IMG/VR virus record: IMGVR_UViG_3300032242_001183
Coordinates: 1-22,882 of that record
Source of the DNA: a virus
DNA: 22,882 nucleotides
Direction: 5' to 3' (one strand)
Below are positions 5,416 to 22,840 of this stretch, piece by piece. How positions within the stretch are numbered: position 1 is the stretch's first letter; each line of letters starts with the position of its first letter. The notes beneath the pieces were generated by a model. It made no database searches. It saw nothing but the letters and a program-made list of their open reading frames with translations, and was not told the DNA's origin. Position numbers and translations under genes: made by a program.

Positions 5416-5975
5416 CGGTCAAGTTCACGATCGAGGGCATAGAGCACGTCACCGCAACCTTGGGCAAGACAGGTCAGATAGTTGCCGAGGACTTGCACAA
5501 AGGCTTCGATCAAGTTGCCCGCATGATGGAGCGCGTCGCCGTGTCTGAAGTCCCGGCTGCTCCCTTGTCTAACTGGGGAGTGTGGCACGCAGCCAGCGGC
5601 CGCAAGTTGAACATTACGCGAGGAACCGAGAAACGCACCTATCGGGATCTTGCCTTCAACGCCGGCGACGTCAAATCCAAGTTGCCGATCTTCGTCACCA
5701 TAAAGAAGAAGGCGCCGCAGGTCGTAACTTTGGGTGCGTATGTGGGCGATCAAAGCGCGGCCGGATCTATCTATGAGAAGGCTGGCAAGAACCCTGATGG
5801 CAAATCTGGTCGTGGAACAACATTCAAGGCAAACTTGAATAGGAAACAGGGCACTAAATATCCACGCATCCTTGGGCCTGCGGGAGCCAAGGGCCAATCG
5901 TGGGGAGTTCCCTATTTGGAGCGCGTCCTCGCTGACAGCGTTCGCAGAGTTCAAGCAATGATGGACGGGAGATAG
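5412..5975 (+). CDS. HK97 gp10-like putative tail component
   Basis: A 187-residue basic protein. The N-terminal FTIEGIEHVTATLGKTGQI and the helix with VAEDLHKGFDQVARMMERV resemble the start of HK97 gp10-like proteins. The middle has AFNAGDVKSKLPIFVTIKKK and the end has PYLERVLADSVRRVQAMM. Gp10-like proteins usually sit upstream of the tail tube gene; here the gene stands between the chaperone pair and the tape measure, coupled to the former by an ATGA overlap. Base composition looks a little more AT-rich than its neighbours (for example around 5820-5860). It could also be an unrelated minor tail protein; the family call is tentative. Confidence 0.5.
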   Translation: MTVKFTIEGIEHVTATLGKTGQIVAEDLHKGFDQVARMMERVAVSEVPAAPLSNWGVWHAASGRKLNITRGTEKRTYRDLAFNAGDVKSKLPIFVTIKKKAPQVVTLGAYVGDQSAAGSIYEKAGKNPDGKSGRGTTFKANLNRKQGTKYPRILGPAGAKGQSWGVPYLERVLADSVRRVQAMMDGR

Positions 5976-5977
5976 GC

Positions 5978-8431
5978 ATGAATAAGTCCCAAGTCATCAT
6001 TGGTGTCGGCGCTGACGTCAAACTGCAAGACCTCGACAGAGGCATCGCCAAACTTCAGCAGCTGCGGGCAGAGGTAAATCACGGCAGTCCTGCCTTCAAG
6101 GTTCTGGGCGAAAATGTCGACGGCTTCACGTCCAAAATCAGCCATAACTTCACCGAGGCACTCAGTGGCGTAGGTGTAGCCCTCGCCGCAACCTTCTCCG
6201 TTGAGAAGGTTGGCGAGTTCTTCAAGTCCACCATCGAGGCCGCGATGGAGGACGAGAAGGCACTGCGCTCGCTGGCTATAACCATGCGCAATGTCGGCGA
6301 CTCAACCCCCATCAAGGAAGTCACCGAGTTTGTTGACAAGTTGGCCGAGCAGACAGGCGTGGCCAAGGAGCAACTGATCCCGGCCTATCAGAAGCTGGAG
6401 ACTGTTTTAGGGGATGGTGCCAAGGCTCAAACCAACCTCAAGTTGGCCATGGATATCTCGGCCGGCACGGGCCGCGATTTGGAAACCGTCACCCTCGCAC
6501 TCTCGAGAGGTTTTGCAGGATCCACGACGGCTTTGAGCCGTCTGGGTGCCGGCATCGACAAGTCGGTGCTGGCCACCGGCGACATGACTCAGATCACGCA
6601 GGTGCTGGCCGACAAGTTTCAGGGCCAAGCAGCTGCAGCAGCGGACACCTTCTCTGGTCGCCTGAACCGCATCTCGGTCGCTACCAATCAAGCCAAAGAG
6701 GACATCGGCTACGCCCTGCTCAACTCGATTGACCAACTCAGCCAGGCATTTGGCGGCGCTGACGGAATCACCGGGCAAATAGACCTCTTTGGCAAATCAG
6801 TCGCGAACACGATAAATGGCGTCAACTTTCTGACGAAATACGTCACCACGTTGGGAACAAGCGCCACAAATGCTTCCGGCGGAATTGGCTTCTTTACTGA
6901 GAAGCTCAAGACTCTCGCAGACTTACTCAAGGGAACTGTCAACGGACTGCAGACCTTGGGCAACATCATGCAAGTGTTGCAGCTGTTCGGGGCGGCAAAC
7001 GCGGCTAAGACACAGATGCAGGCAGACGAATATCACGGTGCCTACACAGCCATCTCGGCATACAACAAGGGCGCTAACGCTGCTATTGGAACAGTGGATG
7101 GGCTGACGAACGCCCTCGACGACAACAGCGCAGCAGCAGCAAACAATGCCGCCTCACTCGCTGCGGCCAATGCTCAAGCGTTCGCTCGTTTCGCCGATCG
7201 AGGGTCGCCTACCGCTATCGAACACTCCATGGCGTCTTTCGCTCTCACTCCGGCTGAACTGAAAGCTGCGAATGATCGAGACGCTGCTCTCGCCGCATCT
7301 TTGGCTAGGGTCAAGGGCGGCGGTTCATCGACTAAGGCTGCCTCAGATGTCGTCAAACTGGTCGCCATCGACTACGCCAAGGCCGCTGCAGATATCAACA
7401 AGTCTCTAAACGGCCTCTCGGTCTCCATCTCTGGCGGCGGCGGCAAGGTTACGCAGGCGCTGGCCGATGAGTTCAAGGCCCGCACAGACACCTTCAAGGC
7501 TGCCATTACCGAACAGCAGAACATCATCAAGGGCGCTCAGGACGCTATCGCGTCGTACTCAGATCAGGTCTCCAGCACTGTCTTTGGATCGCTGGCTAAG
7601 TCCTTCAAAGACTCCTTCTCGGCAACGGTGAAGGATGCCGCCGGGAATGACGTCAACGCTGGCCCCGAGGCGATCGTGAAGCTCATGTTGGGCGACCTCG
7701 CTGCGCAGCAGAAGGCCGTTTCGCGCGTCTCCGCGATCGCTCTGAAACTCCCCGGCGCTCTCACCCAGCAGATCCTGAGCCTTGACCCCGGTCCCGCGTT
7801 CGCTCTGGCTGATTACCTCGCCAACAATCCTGACCTCACTCAGCGATTGACGGATAACTACAACTCGCTGGCCGATCAGACCAAGACCCTGCTGGGCGAT
7901 CCGATGGCTAACGCCTTCGCCACCGTAGGCGGCCAGTCTGCAGTGGCTCTGATCGCGGGCGCTAAGTCTGCTATCGCTTCGATCTCTAGTGAGTTCCAAG
8001 CATGGGCCGCGAACGCGCTGCATGTCACGATCACGATGGACACGACTGGCGTATCTGACACCGCCGTCACGGCCGCGAACACCGCACTCGACGCCGCTCT
8101 CGCAGCGATCGCTCCCGGCTTGGGTGGCCTCGCTGCTGCCGGCGGGTTCATGGGCCTCGTCAACCCACTCGCGGGCCGGGCAAGTGGTGGCTCGGTCACC
8201 GGCGGCACGCCCTACATGGTGGGCGAGAACGGCCCCGAAATATTCGTGCCAGGCATTGACGGGACGATCATCCCGAACGGCGGCATGGCTGGTGGCTCGG
8301 CCGGCTCGGGCAACACTTACGCGATCACCGTGAATTCAGGCGTCGGGGATCCGCGCCAGATCGGTCAGGACATCGTGCAATACATCCGCACCTTTGAGAT
8401 GTCCTCCGGCCGCGTTTTCGCTAAGGCATAA
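5978..8431 (+). CDS. Tail tape measure protein
   Basis: The longest gene of the tail block, 817 residues, sets tail length and enters the cell envelope during DNA injection. The N-terminal 140 residues are helical and charged, the middle is rich in Ala, Gly, Ser and Thr (for example the Ala/Asn-rich stretch near residues 380-400), and a second helical part follows. Near residue 740-768 is the hallmark tape-measure ending ASGGSVTGGTPYMVGENGPE with FVPGIDGTIIPNGG. The start ATG has GGGAGA ahead of it and is 2 nt from the previous stop. No frameshift or truncation is seen. A short gene of this size suggests a fairly short tail. Confidence 0.93.
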   Translation: MNKSQVIIGVGADVKLQDLDRGIAKLQQLRAEVNHGSPAFKVLGENVDGFTSKISHNFTEALSGVGVALAATFSVEKVGEFFKSTIEAAMEDEKALRSLAITMRNVGDSTPIKEVTEFVDKLAEQTGVAKEQLIPAYQKLETVLGDGAKAQTNLKLAMDISAGTGRDLETVTLALSRGFAGSTTALSRLGAGIDKSVLATGDMTQITQVLADKFQGQAAAAADTFSGRLNRISVATNQAKEDIGYALLNSIDQLSQAFGGADGITGQIDLFGKSVANTINGVNFLTKYVTTLGTSATNASGGIGFFTEKLKTLADLLKGTVNGLQTLGNIMQVLQLFGAANAAKTQMQADEYHGAYTAISAYNKGANAAIGTVDGLTNALDDNSAAAANNAASLAAANAQAFARFADRGSPTAIEHSMASFALTPAELKAANDRDAALAASLARVKGGGSSTKAASDVVKLVAIDYAKAAADINKSLNGLSVSISGGGGKVTQALADEFKARTDTFKAAITEQQNIIKGAQDAIASYSDQVSSTVFGSLAKSFKDSFSATVKDAAGNDVNAGPEAIVKLMLGDLAAQQKAVSRVSAIALKLPGALTQQILSLDPGPAFALADYLANNPDLTQRLTDNYNSLADQTKTLLGDPMANAFATVGGQSAVALIAGAKSAIASISSEFQAWAANALHVTITMDTTGVSDTAVTAANTALDAALAAIAPGLGGLAAAGGFMGLVNPLAGRASGGSVTGGTPYMVGENGPEIFVPGIDGTIIPNGGMAGGSAGSGNTYAITVNSGVGDPRQIGQDIVQYIRTFEMSSGRVFAKA

Positions 8432-16644: not shown

Positions 16645-16978
16645 CCACCGAAAGCATCGTGGCTACGCCTCGCAACGCATCGTCGCTGACTTCCTGCGCG
16701 TGAACGGCTGGCCGTATGCCGAGCCGGTGGGCGCTGGTCGGGACGGCTCAGACATCACCGGACTACTGGATATCGACGTCGAGGTGAAGGCCCGTCGGGG
16801 CTTTGACCCTTTGGCGGCGATGCGTCAGCAGGCCGAGCGCACTAAGCCCGGCGTCCTGTCCTTCGCGGTGCTGCGCATGGACGGTCAGGGCGAGAAGTCG
16901 ATCGAGGACTGGCCGACGGTGATCGCGTTCGGTGCGTTCGTGCAGCTGCTGCGCGAGGCCGGATATGGGGCCGCATGA
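16637..16978 (+). CDS. PD-(D/E)XK nuclease, Holliday-junction-resolvase-like
   Basis: A 113-residue protein with the small resolvase pattern: helix RGYASQRIVADFLRVNGW, then GRDGSDITG with D39, DIDVEVKARRG with E49 and K51 (E-x-K), and a terminal helix. This matches archaeal-type Holliday junction resolvase or related PD-(D/E)XK nucleases that cut branched DNA during replication and packaging. ATG at 16637 overlaps the previous gene; ATGA overlap with the WhiB gene follows. The length agrees with the family, and catalytic D, E and K are present. Which branched or damaged substrate it cuts is not known. Confidence 0.75.
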   Translation: MTDHRKHRGYASQRIVADFLRVNGWPYAEPVGAGRDGSDITGLLDIDVEVKARRGFDPLAAMRQQAERTKPGVLSFAVLRMDGQGEKSIEDWPTVIAFGAFVQLLREAGYGAA

Positions 16979-17211
16979 ACGACGACTGGATCGAGCGCGC
17001 TGCCTGCCGAGCCGACGGCATTGATCCTGACGAATGGTTCCCGGTCAGCGGTCACCCCGATGACTCCATCGCTGCGGTGCGGATCTGCAAGACGTGCCCG
17101 GTGCAAGCCGAATGCCTGGCCTACGCGATCCGCGTCAAGCCCACCGCCGGCATCTGGGCCGACATCAGTGCCCACCAAGTTGACCACCTGCGACGAAAGG
17201 CCAACGCATGA
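16975..17211 (+). CDS. WhiB-family iron-sulfur regulator
   Basis: A 78-residue WhiB-like protein. The four [4Fe-4S] ligands are in order: C11, C38, C41 and C47 (RICKTCPVQAEC, spacing CxxC-x5-C). The usual G-[VI]-W-G-G turn reads GIWADIS, so the second and third residues differ from the consensus. The basic C-terminal helix HQVDHLRRKA is kept. In actinobacteria WhiB proteins act with sigma factor A to set gene expression; phage-encoded ones, as in mycobacteriophage TM4, can interfere with the host's WhiB2 and cell division. Start overlaps the previous stop (ATGA) and the next gene starts on its stop, so it is in one translational unit with the two nucleases. Confidence 0.87.
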   Translation: MNDDWIERAACRADGIDPDEWFPVSGHPDDSIAAVRICKTCPVQAECLAYAIRVKPTAGIWADISAHQVDHLRRKANA

Positions 17212-18564: not shown

Positions 18565-20601
18565 ATGGGCGAGCAGGAGGACGTGACCTCCCAACCTGCC
18601 GAGCATGAACTGCTCGCCGCTGCCCGCGCCTGGTATGACGCAGGCTTCGCCGTGATTCCCTGCCACGAGGACGGCTCCAAGCGCCCCTTCGGGCCGTGGC
18701 GCCAATACCAACTCAAGCGACCCGACTGGCACACCGTGCGCGAATGGCTGGAGTCCGGCCGCTTCACTGGCATCGGGGCGCTCATGGGAGAAGCCAGCCG
18801 CAACACCGAGATGATCGAGCTGGAGGGACCGCTCGACGCCGCCATCCAGCGCCTCGAGCGCGTCATGGAGCGCGCCCGCCAGCAGGGCTTCGCCGACCTC
18901 AACATGGCCGACCTCCTGGCACGCATCGCCCGAGGCTGCAGCGAGCAATCCGCAGGCGGTGGACTGCACCTCTTTATACGGGTCACTGACGGCCCCGCCA
19001 AGGCGAACACGAAACTGGCCCACGCCGGCCAAGGCCCCGACCGCAAGGTGATCGCCGAAACCCGAGGGGAGGGAGGCTTCGTGGTCGTTGCCCCCACCAC
19101 TGCCCGCAATGGGCATGAGCCGGGCACCGCCTACCTGTTCCTGCGCGGATCCTCCCCGGCCGGCGTCGTGGACGTCACCAGCGAGGAGCGCGACCTCATC
19201 CACCTGCTGATCACCCTCGCCCTCGATGAGCCCGATACGGCTTCGCGTATCACCAGCACGAGCACCGGGGCCAGCAGCTCTGAACCCGGCGCGTTCGACG
19301 AATACCGTCAGCGCACCACATGGCGGGACATCCTCGCCCCAGCTGGCTGGCGTGAAGGATTCACCGACGCTGACGGCCGCACCCACTGGACGCGGCCCGG
19401 CGGTCAGTCATTCGAAGGAACCAGCGCCACCACCCTCGAGGATGGGCCGCTGTATGTGTTCTCCACCAACGCCGGGCTACCCACCGAGCAAGGACTATCC
19501 AAGGCCACCGTGTACGCGCTGCTGCACCATGACGGGGACTTGAGTGCTGCAGGCAAGGCACTCGTCAAGGAATACTTCGGCCAGGCATCCACGGTCCTTC
19601 CACCATGGGAAGCATCGCTCGACCCTGACGCCACCGACGACGAGCGCGAGGAAGCCAAGACCTCCTACATCCGCGAGCGCCTGCCCATCCTTGACTGGCA
19701 AGCCCTGTGGGCCGACACCACCGAGGAAGAATGGATCGTTGAGCCACTGCTGGCCAAGCGACGCCTCGTGGCCCTGTATTCCGCGCCCAAGATCGGCAAG
19801 TCCCTGCTCATGCTCGAGCTCGCGGCAGGAATCGCCAGCGGACGCCCCGTGCTGGGAAACAGCGCCACGCATCCGTTGGCCGTGCTCTATGTGGACTTCG
19901 AGAACGATCCGCGAGGCGACATTCGCACGCGCCTCGAGGCGATGGGCTATGCACCCAGTGACCTAGGAAACCTGTGCTACCTGTCCTTCCCCACGCTCGC
20001 CAAGTTAGACACTAAGCAAGGAGCCGACGAGCTGCTGGCGGCGATCGCCGAGTACGCCTGCGAGGTAGTAGTCATCGACACCATCAGTCGATCCGTGGCC
20101 GGGGATGAGAACGAGAACGACACCTGGCTGAACTTCTACCGACACACCGGGCTAAGGCTCAAGCAAGCAGAGGTGGCCATGATCCGGCTGGACCACTCGG
20201 GCAAGGACGAAAGCAAAGGCCAGCGAGGTGGGTCGGCAAAGTCCGGCGACGTCGACGCCGTGTGGCGGCTATCCAAGTTAGGTGACGACACCTTCCGGCT
20301 GTCCTGCGAGGCCCACCGATTCCCGATCACCGAGCAAGTCGTGGACCTGCAGCGGGTCGAGGATCCACACCTGCGGCACAAGAGAGACATGGATGCCAGG
20401 GCGAAAGCCACCGACGAAATCATCGGCAAACTAGCCAAGGCAGGCGTGCCGAGGGACGGATCCGTAAAAGTCAGAGAAGCCCGCAGGATGCTCACAGCGG
20501 TCGGCATTTCATTCGCCAACGGATCAGTGAAAGCCGATGTGCTGGCCGAATACTGCCGACGTTTGCCCGTATTCGAGACCCCCGAAATGGGCACAGAATG
20601 A
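18565..20601 (+). CDS. Primase-polymerase / RepA-like helicase
   Basis: A 678-residue two-part replication protein. Residues 1-210 have the bifunctional primase/polymerase N-terminal pattern (HELLAAARAWYDAGFAVIP, then CHEDGSKRPFGPW, GIGALMGEAS, GGGLHLFIRV). Residues 385-600 form a RecA-type ATPase like plasmid RepA and AAA_25: Walker A SAPKIGKS (406-413), Walker B VVVID with D505, and a DHSGK turn. It likely primes and unwinds phage DNA at the adjacent candidate origin. The C-terminus has two helical segments and ends in an ATGA overlap with the next gene. ATG at 18565 has a weak ribosome site; GTG at 18583 follows AGGAGG too closely to prefer. No separate DNA polymerase gene is in the window. 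Confidence 0.87.
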   Translation: MGEQEDVTSQPAEHELLAAARAWYDAGFAVIPCHEDGSKRPFGPWRQYQLKRPDWHTVREWLESGRFTGIGALMGEASRNTEMIELEGPLDAAIQRLERVMERARQQGFADLNMADLLARIARGCSEQSAGGGLHLFIRVTDGPAKANTKLAHAGQGPDRKVIAETRGEGGFVVVAPTTARNGHEPGTAYLFLRGSSPAGVVDVTSEERDLIHLLITLALDEPDTASRITSTSTGASSSEPGAFDEYRQRTTWRDILAPAGWREGFTDADGRTHWTRPGGQSFEGTSATTLEDGPLYVFSTNAGLPTEQGLSKATVYALLHHDGDLSAAGKALVKEYFGQASTVLPPWEASLDPDATDDEREEAKTSYIRERLPILDWQALWADTTEEEWIVEPLLAKRRLVALYSAPKIGKSLLMLELAAGIASGRPVLGNSATHPLAVLYVDFENDPRGDIRTRLEAMGYAPSDLGNLCYLSFPTLAKLDTKQGADELLAAIAEYACEVVVIDTISRSVAGDENENDTWLNFYRHTGLRLKQAEVAMIRLDHSGKDESKGQRGGSAKSGDVDAVWRLSKLGDDTFRLSCEAHRFPITEQVVDLQRVEDPHLRHKRDMDARAKATDEIIGKLAKAGVPRDGSVKVREARRMLTAVGISFANGSVKADVLAEYCRRLPVFETPEMGTE

Positions 20602-21125
20602 CCGCGCAGGTGTGCCGCGAAACTGACGGCACACCCCTGTTTGATGTGCCGGGGTGTGCCGAGTGTGCCGTGGGTGTGCCGTCGCTATTTCCCTCACAAA
20701 ACGGCGCGTGCCGTGGGTGTGCCGTATCCATTGGTGAAGTGTGCCGCCGCTCTCTCTCTAGGAGAGCGGCACACCCGGTCCGCAACCTACGCAGGACCAT
20801 TCAGATCCATGTCTGCTTTGACTGCCAGACCGCTGTCTTGTCGGGCCTCGACGCCGACCGAGCAGCCCTACCCGTCACCGTCACCGCCCACGCCCTGACC
20901 GCCTCAGGTGAAGCATGGGCGCTGCAGTCGGGACTAGCCACCTACCAACTCACAGGCCGACAGCTCTACCCGCGCGACCGTTGGAACATCCCCGGCAAGC
21001 CACCCAGCGCCGACCGCACTGTGCTCGCGGCACATGACTGCGACCTCGTCATTCCGGCCGAGCACCGCCGGCCACTACCCCCGCCGGCCCCACCACGACC
21101 CGCCACCACCGGCATCGGATTCTGA
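20598..21125 (+). CDS. Conserved phage protein, Cys-pair; N-terminus uncertain
   Basis: The C-terminal 105 residues are a recognisable actinophage conserved protein: HVCFDCQTAVLSGLDADRAA, then VTAHALTASGEAWALQSGLA, TYQLTGRQLYPRDRWNI and a Pro-rich ending. CFDC may bind metal. The ATG at 20598 overlaps the helicase stop (ATGA). However, the first 60 codons run through the GTGTGCCG repeat array and read as Cys/Val/Pro/Ala-rich, low-quality sequence. The true start may be further downstream, for example GTG at 20739. Function unknown, probably linked to replication through its place between the helicase and the HTH protein. Confidence 0.58.
   Translation: MTAQVCRETDGTPLFDVPGCAECAVGVPSLFPSQNGACRGCAVSIGEVCRRSLSRRAAHPVRNLRRTIQIHVCFDCQTAVLSGLDADRAALPVTVTAHALTASGEAWALQSGLATYQLTGRQLYPRDRWNIPGKPPSADRTVLAAHDCDLVIPAEHRRPLPPPAPPRPATTGIGF
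20609..20775. repeat. Iteron-like array, candidate replication origin
   Basis: Ten copies of GTGTGCCG in 167 bases: eight exact (starting at 20610, 20654, 20663, 20674, 20717 and 20739 in direct orientation, and reversed at 20627-20635 and 20767-20775) and two with one mismatch (20644, 20706). Direct copies are spaced 34, 10, 9, 11, 32, 11 and 22 nt, close to multiples of a helical turn. Copies at both ends are inverted, GGTGTGCCG/CGGCACACC. Copy 9 and the last reversed copy also form a longer hairpin with GCTCTC/GAGAGC around TCTCTAG. Such clusters bind replication initiators or repressors. The nearby AT-rich stretch is short (20686-20703). Confidence 0.8.
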
Positions 21126-21291: not shown

Positions 21292-21467
21292 CCCACGACC
21301 AGACTGAATCACTTTGCCAGTTTGTAACGAAGGCTGAGTACTACTACCAAGCCAATAACGGGTTCTACCCTCCCCCCGATTGTCAGTGCGAACTCATCGC
21401 CAAGGTGCGCCACGACGAGCGCCAGAAACTGAAAGAACATATCAACTTGCCCAAGGAGCCAGCATGA
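21288..21467 (+). CDS. Hypothetical protein, 59 aa
   Basis: A 59-residue ORF, MTHDQTESLCQFVTKAEYYY then QANNGFYPPPDCQCELIAKV, with CxC near the middle and a charged helical end. It overlaps the stop of the previous gene (ATGA) and its own stop overlaps the ATG of the next gene, with AAGGAG (21453-21458) in its last codons as that gene's ribosome site. The tight packing supports a real gene; function unknown. Confidence 0.58.
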   Translation: MTHDQTESLCQFVTKAEYYYQANNGFYPPPDCQCELIAKVRHDERQKLKEHINLPKEPA

Positions 21468-22306
21468 CTTGCATCCTGTGCGCGGCCCGAGGCCGCACCA
21501 CCGAGACCGACGGCCACTGCTGCACTAAATGCCGCACACGCCTCGACCAATCACTCGGCGACATCCTGCGCCTAGCCTCACAGGCCGCCGCCTATCAGCC
21601 GCCGACCTCGAGCGGCAGCAGCAGGCCCACGCCCGGCAGCAGGCCACCGATGTCCCTCGACGGACTGGACCCCGAGTTGACGCTTGTGCAGCTCGTACCA
21701 GGAGACAGGTCGAGCGCTGTGCCGATCCTTGAGTGCCTTGAGTCATGGGAGCGAGCCATACGCGAGGACCGTGAGCTCTTGGCTTTCGGACCCGCGACCG
21801 CCTATCGGCTGACGTTGATCGCCAAGCAGGGACCAGTGACCACCGGCGCCTACCTGACGGGCACGGTGAACTTCCTGCGCGCCCATATCGGCTGGATCAC
21901 CACCGAGCCGACGTTCGGGCTTGAGGACTTCGCCGGCCACGTCTACGCGTCGGTGCGCGCCCTGCGCCGCTTCGATCGAGACAACCAGCCGACCGGTACC
22001 GTCATCGCCTGCCCGACGGTAAGCGAGCGCGGTGAGTGTGGGTATCGCCTGCGCTACGACGACCTCGGCGATCAAGTGACGTGCCCGCGATGCAAGGCGA
22101 CACGCGACGCCGCAACGCTGGCCACAATCGCCATGAGTGATGGCCGGCAAGTGTGGCTGGATCCCGAGGCAGCAGCTGCACACCTTGGCATCGACGAGCG
22201 CACACTGCGACGTCGAGCGATGCGAGGAGAGATCAAGCGATCGCACGGTCGCTACCTCATCACCGCAACATTGACAACACGAGCCGCGTCCGTCACAATG
22301 ATCTAG
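21464..22306 (+). CDS. Zinc-ribbon / HTH DNA-binding protein
   Basis: A 280-residue protein. N-terminal zinc-ribbon C3-x2-C6 with C20-x2-C23 (TCILCAARG, HCCTKC), a Pro/Ser-rich linker (about 45-65), a helical middle domain (LESWERAIREDRELL and onwards), a second ribbon near residue 195-220 (ECGYRLRY, VTCPRCKATRD) and a C-terminal helix-turn-helix of the MerR/HTH_17 type (LDPEAAAAHLGIDERTLRRR, AMRGEIKRSHGRYLI). ATG at 21464 has AAGGAG (21453-21458) 5 nt ahead. Conserved in many actinophages; function is unproven. By placement it is a candidate to bind the repeat array 0.7 kb upstream or to regulate the early operon. Confidence 0.66.
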   Translation: MTCILCAARGRTTETDGHCCTKCRTRLDQSLGDILRLASQAAAYQPPTSSGSSRPTPGSRPPMSLDGLDPELTLVQLVPGDRSSAVPILECLESWERAIREDRELLAFGPATAYRLTLIAKQGPVTTGAYLTGTVNFLRAHIGWITTEPTFGLEDFAGHVYASVRALRRFDRDNQPTGTVIACPTVSERGECGYRLRYDDLGDQVTCPRCKATRDAATLATIAMSDGRQVWLDPEAAAAHLGIDERTLRRRAMRGEIKRSHGRYLITATLTTRAASVTMI

Positions 22307-22388: not shown

Positions 22389-22565
22389 ATGCTTACCGTC
22401 GCCGAGGTCGACGAGGCACTCGGGCACGCCAGCCGCGTACCTTGGTCGGCACGCACCCCGCAATACTTTGACTTCGTAGATCGACTGCTCGACATCCGCG
22501 CCCTCCTTGAGGAGCGCGACAAAATGTTTACGACCATCGTCGCTGAGGCTTTCGCTCAGGCATGA
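22389..22565 (+). CDS. Hypothetical protein, 58 aa
   Basis: A 58-residue ORF, MLTVAEVDEALGHASRVPWS followed by FVDRLLDIRALLEERDKMFT, mostly helical and acidic. No strong ribosome site is seen. The stop overlaps the HNH gene start (ATGA), which supports translation of both as a pair. It could be the partner or regulator of the HNH protein, or a small head-to-terminase accessory; nothing is recognised. Confidence 0.5.
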   Translation: MLTVAEVDEALGHASRVPWSARTPQYFDFVDRLLDIRALLEERDKMFTTIVAEAFAQA

Positions 22566-22840
22566 CCGCCAAGTGGGCAGGCCGTAGGGCTACCAACGCT
22601 AAGGCATGGTGCGTCGCTAACCTCGGCAACATCTGCTGGCTGTGTGGCCGTCCGATCGAGTCCGAGGCCGACTACTCAGTGGATCACGTCATCCCGAGAT
22701 CAGTCGATCCGACCCTGACATGGGATCCCGGCAACTGGCGCCCCGCACATCTTCGCCGTCATGACGCGATCGGCTGTCCCGGTAACTCGGGCCGCGGCGC
22801 TCGACCGATCGCGCCGCGAGTCAACTCGCGCCGATGGTGA
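22562..22840 (+). CDS. HNH endonuclease, packaging-type
   Basis: A 92-residue HNH nuclease. C25-x2-C28 (CWLCGRPI), VDHVIPRS with D41 and H42, N58 and H63 (DPGNWRPAHLR) and C72 (GCPGN) give the HNH core and a structural zinc. Single-domain HNH proteins of this length stand directly before the terminase genes in many cos-type phages, where they help cut the concatemer. The remaining 42 bases to the window end carry no gene. The gene overlaps the previous stop. An intron-homing role is the alternative, given the group I intron in the capsid gene, but position favours packaging. Confidence 0.8.
   Translation: MTAKWAGRRATNAKAWCVANLGNICWLCGRPIESEADYSVDHVIPRSVDPTLTWDPGNWRPAHLRRHDAIGCPGNSGRGARPIAPRVNSRRW

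Follow-up and report, generated by a model that had tools for sequence, protein, structure and literature searches.

A candidate iteron origin beside a phage Prim-Pol/RepA-like primase-helicase gene, with repeat units that change in concert among relatives

Introduction

In SaPI/PICI elements the initiator helicase, Rep, recognises short iterons just downstream of its own gene through its C-terminal domain (PMC7581432); two iteron sets flank an A+T-rich region, and primase and Rep are sometimes fused (PMC6092414). The helicase Cch2 of SCCmec binds repeats downstream of its own gene at a putative origin, its C-terminal domain binding a direct repeat, with priming near the site (PMC7581432). The iterons bound in phages lambda, P22 and L seem to differ from one phage to the next, and they lie within the initiator gene (PMC8022706). 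In PLE, RepA co-varies with the origin, the modules are exchanged, and RepA and origin must be a cognate pair (PMC8263062). We found no description of an iteron origin in actinobacterial phages in the open-access papers searched, and a study of mycobacterial prophages saw no recurring motif in the regions it took as candidates (PMC7157519).

The locus considered here lies in a 22,882-nucleotide stretch of viral DNA (positions 1 to 22,882 of IMG/VR record IMGVR_UViG_3300032242_001183; hereafter the window). As in SaPI/PICI elements, short iterons in two sets lie immediately 3' of a helicase gene, and a C-terminal domain (CTD) of the helicase is the proposed reader. Unlike the SaPI-type initiator helicase, the motor has an AAA_25/RecA fold with RSF1010 RepA as its best match and is fused to a Prim-Pol domain; a terminal hairpin is present, and virion genes, which the satellites lack, are carried in what are seemingly actinobacterial phages. 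Since the motor family differs and virion genes are present, we do not regard the module as a member of the SaPI/PICI group, though it would work alike. SCCmec Cch2 differs in having three 5-nt iterons and a separate A-family polymerase-primase. With lambda O and the lambdoid phages the family appears to share iterons that differ among phages and match the initiator of each, and in Streptomyces phage mu1/6 the array likewise lies in the helicase gene; lambda O, however, is neither helicase nor primase, and its iterons, of about 11-20 bp, are longer than the 7-8 bp units considered here. PLE RepA is a RepA_N initiator without a helicase, paired with three iterons of about 30 bp. The closest solved fold of the window's motor domain is RSF1010 RepA. 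RSF1010 leaves iteron binding to a separate protein, RepC, whereas the reader proposed for the window is fused to the helicase.

Results

Genes for major head, tail terminator and minor tail proteins lie in the window together with an integrase gene, which suggests that it is a portion of a temperate phage. Its host is likely actinobacterial, because related prophages occur in Flaviflexus, Arthrobacter, Agrococcus and Isoptericola and mu1/6 encodes a related helicase; a more distant prophage is found in Bifidobacterium. A prophage survey of one bacterial order gave a low yield (6 of 396 genomes). Among the virion genes are two glycosyltransferase-like genes (1089-2911; phrog_2170 and phrog_29879), a WhiB-like transcription factor gene (16975-17211) sits within the replication region, and an HNH endonuclease-like gene occupies the right end (22562-22840).

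The proposed initiator is a primase-helicase of 678 aa encoded on the plus strand at 18565-20601, with Pfam matches to Prim-Pol (2.9e-13) and AAA_25 (6.8e-29). The RecA-fold helicase core is of the RSF1010 RepA type by sequence (7.9e-9) and by structure: a model of residues 371-678 (mean pLDDT 91.5) has RSF1010 RepA as its closest solved structure, with Z 22.7. The RepA-like primase-helicase that the earlier note had recognised beside the array is thus borne out. Its CTD (20395-20559, plus strand) has three predicted helices at residues 611-625, 636-645 and 657-665. A Pfam search with the window's CTD gave no match, and the best hit to known DNA-binding folds in a structure search was unconvincing (Z 4.8), the model of the CTD alone being of modest quality (pLDDT 76).

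Starting 8 bases past the helicase stop, ten copies of the 8-bp unit GTGTGCCG lie within 20610-20774, eight of them exact and two with one mismatch, in agreement with the earlier count. The left half-array opens with an exact copy on the plus strand (20610-20617) that pairs with an exact inverted copy on the minus strand (20627-20634). Four plus-strand copies follow: one at 20644-20651 with a mismatch (ATGTGCCG, A at position 1) and exact ones at 20654-20661, 20663-20670 and 20674-20681, where the half-array ends. A central spacer, TCGCTATTTCCCTCACAAAACGGC (20682-20705), contains TTTCCCTCACAAAA and is a candidate melting element. The right half-array consists of a plus-strand copy with one mismatch at 20706-20713 (GCGTGCCG, C at position 2), exact plus-strand copies at 20717-20724 and 20739-20746, and an exact inverted copy on the minus strand at 20767-20774; the last two form the left and right arms of a terminal hairpin with the core GCCGCTCTCTCTCTAGGAGAGCGGC (20746-20770). 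Inverted copies at both ends and a hairpin in the last pair had been noted before; both end pairs fold into hairpins, with z of -4.9 and -4.1 (the latter for the terminal one with its flanks). The window thus has the multiple short repeats, tightly linked to a proposed initiator gene, that are expected of an iteron origin. GC skew showed no clear switch, but tells little on a fragment such as this one of 22.9 kb.

Exact matches to GTGTGCCG throughout the 22,882-base record number six forward and two reverse, every one inside the array, against one forward and none reverse for the reversed-pattern control. With one mismatch permitted the word shows no excess over the whole window (39 observed, 41 by chance), so the signal lies in the clustering and not in the word itself. 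The top 6-mer count per 300 bp is 10, compared with a mean of 3.3 and a maximum of 5 in Markov shuffles. Direct copies are spaced by 34, 10, 9, 11, 32, 11 and 22 bases, and the near-multiples of 10-11 nt that had been remarked upon are confirmed as helical phasing, the cosine coherence of the seven spacings being 0.76 at 10.5 bp and 0.85 at 11 bp. When spacings from relatives are pooled, the maxima fall at 9-12 and 20-24 bp, and a lesser rise appears near 31-35.

The earlier note had also held that the array is not built for coding, and this stands in part: the spacings are not multiples of three, yet an open reading frame spans the array. The frame (20598-21125, plus strand) encodes a CxxC protein of 175 aa whose match to phrog_16156 begins at residue 70; the array overlaps the 5' part of the frame, whose start is uncertain, and the protein is not the proposed reader. 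Within 20598-20780 no obvious start codon is seen between the array and the conserved part. The frame is open through the array in the window and in L009 (relatives are given by locus handle where one is needed) but interrupted by stops in L012, and in L010, L017 and L018 a separate start past the array serves the next gene; the array is therefore not translated in general. A coding repeat was rejected, as the spacings are out of frame and the frame is closed or unused in several relatives. A structured RNA was likewise rejected, the sole match being a chance one to an animal microRNA family (E 0.34).

Arrays recur at the same place in relatives. With an array called at a maximum 6-mer count of at least 7, searched from -700 to +1800 of the helicase stop, 45 of 57 non-redundant relatives have one, compared with 5 of 109 control segments taken from those loci, which answers the earlier suggestion to look for conserved repeats in relatives. 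Among 84 further, held-out relatives 44 reach the threshold and 40, many of them distant, miss it. The spelling of the unit varies among phages: GTGTCCCG in L009, TGATTCCC in L012 and L013, GTGCCCC in L014, GATCCG in L016, CTGTCCC in L017, CTGTCCG in L018 and CCTGCCC in mu1/6, with others besides. Most units can be read as a GG core with variable bases before and after it, although some near-palindromic units allow more than one orientation and register, and the L009 unit takes a different register under the last-GG rule than in the homologous alignment.

The layout, by comparison, is kept: two half-arrays surround a spacer and are followed by a hairpin between inverted copies. L017, L045 and L036 share the strand order -+-++-++-+ and spacings of about 15, 23, 15, (10-24), 39-51, 16, 10 and 22, with a spacer of roughly 33-54 bp between their half-arrays, and L094, L097 and L099 show spacings of 12, 25-27, 12 ... 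12, 10, 24. With automatic spacer picking, the A+T content of the spacer exceeds that of its own locus in 35 of 41 arrays, by a mean of 9 points; the enrichment of the window's spacer is modest. The TTTCCCTCACAAAA element also occurs in L009 and L025, with near-matches in L010 and L015. Conserved non-repeat elements of this kind, TTTCCCTCACAAAA in the window's group and GCAGGTCAGA in other groups, were seen in the central spacers of L028, L032, L035, L038, L105 and L048 besides the window. A hairpin with a TA-type centre, like that of the window, lies near the right end of most arrays; L014 and L016 have it in identical form in spite of their different units. The hairpin centres CTATAG, CTAAAG and CTAG are kept while units change, and might mark a strand-specific site, for priming or another purpose.

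The arrays of some phages, mu1/6, L028 and L089 among them, fall wholly or in part within the helicase reading frame. That of mu1/6 (L048; DQ372923.1) consists of CCTGCCC units at about 5900-6090, within the 3'-terminal part of the annotated helicase gene gp21; it is unannotated in the record, and the papers searched contained nothing on mu1/6 replication. In L037 a GIY-YIG nuclease-like gene (5981-6500) separates helicase from array; the array is kept, begins about 520 bases past the helicase stop and runs to about 6660. The origin-directed GIY-YIG nuclease Odn of ICP1 offers a comparison for this insert (PMC8263062).

The closest relative, L009, has a helicase about 90% identical to that of the window, and its array carries the same single-base substitution in all ten copies, the core being otherwise unchanged; outside the units 19 of 95 bases differ. 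The densest difference between the two helicases falls in the CTD, where 22 of 28 aligned residues differ at 633-660 (20461-20544) between identical flanks, the last 19 residues of the protein among them. Smaller clusters of differences lie at residues about 76-125 and 201-250.

These changes bear on the alternative raised in the earlier note, that the array is an operator for the downstream zinc/HTH protein; we considered it together with the CxxC protein as a possible controller, the target being early transcription. Both genes lie directly downstream, and the zinc/HTH protein (308 aa; 21380-22306, plus strand) has an HTH_17 match of 25.3 bits, just below the Pfam cutoff. Both proteins, however, have hardly changed in L009 despite its altered unit: the zinc/HTH protein is 95% identical and its HTH motif is the same, although every unit copy differs, and the operator reading is disfavoured for that reason. 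Most array-bearing loci, moreover, gave no match to either protein in the flanks examined, and the L037 array has been retained despite the gene inserted between it and the helicase. No promoter-like or terminator-like site was found within 20400-21000, which also led us to reject a promoter or terminator as the nature of the array. We give an operator only a slim chance.

Beyond this pair of phages, unit similarity follows the CTD. In 15 pairs with motor identity of at least 0.80 it correlates with CTD identity at rho 0.94 (label permutation p 0.0002), against rho -0.26 with motor identity in the same pairs; for nine disjoint pairs rho with CTD identity is 0.79 (p 0.012). Over all 990 pairs the partial correlation of unit and CTD is weak (0.14, p 0.011), as would be expected if distant pairs were saturated, and this limits the claim. 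Here and in the tests below, relatedness was corrected, where it was, by clustering and by the use of sister pairs only.

A scan of 1344 associations between residue class and base left two residues, 636 and 651, beyond the permutation threshold. Residue 651 (Ala in the window; codon 20515-20517, plus strand) is a candidate specificity residue located, in the model, in the loop preceding the third CTD helix. Arginine or lysine at 651 is associated with a G immediately 5' to the GG core, and other residues mostly with C or T; the sister pairs L017/L018, L083/L085, L097/L089, L078/L105 and L014/L016 fit this rule. As the rule was noticed after the data had been seen, it was tested on phages unused before. 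G accompanied R/K651 in 20 of 22 held-out phages, compared with 2 of 19 with other residues (one-sided Fisher 1.6e-7, relatedness uncorrected). With one entry per CTD cluster the counts are 9/11 and 2/12 (p 0.003), and without four poorly aligned CTDs 7/8 and 1/11 (p 0.001). One CTD cluster, that of L162 with L176 and L168, is mixed in the direction that the rule predicts. The association at residue 636 (R/K with C at unit column 4) was the strongest in the discovery scan; the held-out set contains only three R/K cases, and we rejected it as likely confounded by clade.

Could the co-variation arise from neighbour hitchhiking, with recombination swapping the helicase 3' end together with the array and no contact between protein and DNA? 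The CTD adjoins the array, so that some joint exchange is possible, and phage genomes often have mosaic boundaries near their replication genes. Against this, the last 19 helicase residues are identical between the window and L009 and the spacers largely conserved, yet all ten units change at the same base; the residue-base rule, furthermore, recurs in sister pairs of separate lineages and in held-out phages. Hitchhiking thus appears slimmer still as a prospect than an operator, and the comparisons suggest instead that the helical CTD of the Prim-Pol/RepA-like helicase probably reads the units of the array.

Discussion

What could be the role of an array that a primase-helicase probably reads? 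Its position in most relatives, the conserved geometry, the concerted change of units and their co-variation with the helicase CTD all point, at the level of sequence, to an iteron replication origin directly after the initiator gene. We consider this reading, put forward in the earlier note, highly probable.

The same CTD might instead read the array as an autoregulatory or segregation site. The co-variation in itself attests only to the linkage of CTD and unit, and in some phages the array extends into the helicase frame. The half-arrays, the A+T-enriched spacer and the hairpin nevertheless fit an origin, the proposed reader is a primase-helicase, and the precedents in SaPI and SCCmec serve, or are presumed to serve, as origins (PMC7581432, PMC6092414), all of which makes such a site unlikely. 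Least credible of all is a partition (parS-like) or packaging site: extrachromosomal mycobacterial prophages do have repeats of this kind, for instance parS immediately downstream of repA (PMC7157519), but the unit here co-varies with the helicase CTD and the window carries an integrase gene.

If the array is an origin, the CTD would bind units of both half-arrays along a single helical face, and this binding would load the helicase. The A+T-richer central spacer would then melt, and the Prim-Pol domain would prime, perhaps on the terminal hairpin. A CTD variant would need matching iterons, giving each phage a private origin spelling. What drives the turnover of units is a matter for speculation. 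Decoy origins are able to arrest phage lambda (PMC4488673), and PLE origins are targeted by an origin-directed nuclease (PMC8263062); a similar pressure could explain it.

On a broader view, to which we give even chances, these phages would represent a large primase-helicase family with a fast-evolving DNA-reading tail and a simple residue-to-base code. The tail and ten origin words would change their spelling jointly, with decoys or origin-directed nucleases as a possible source of pressure, and natural sister phages would be a ready-made set of orthogonal replicons. The array offers a concrete candidate origin, together with a possible reader domain and a single rule linking residue to base. 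With about ten sites rewritten in concert among close relatives whose motors are 95% identical, the family may provide matched natural pairs for the study of how initiator and origin change specificity.
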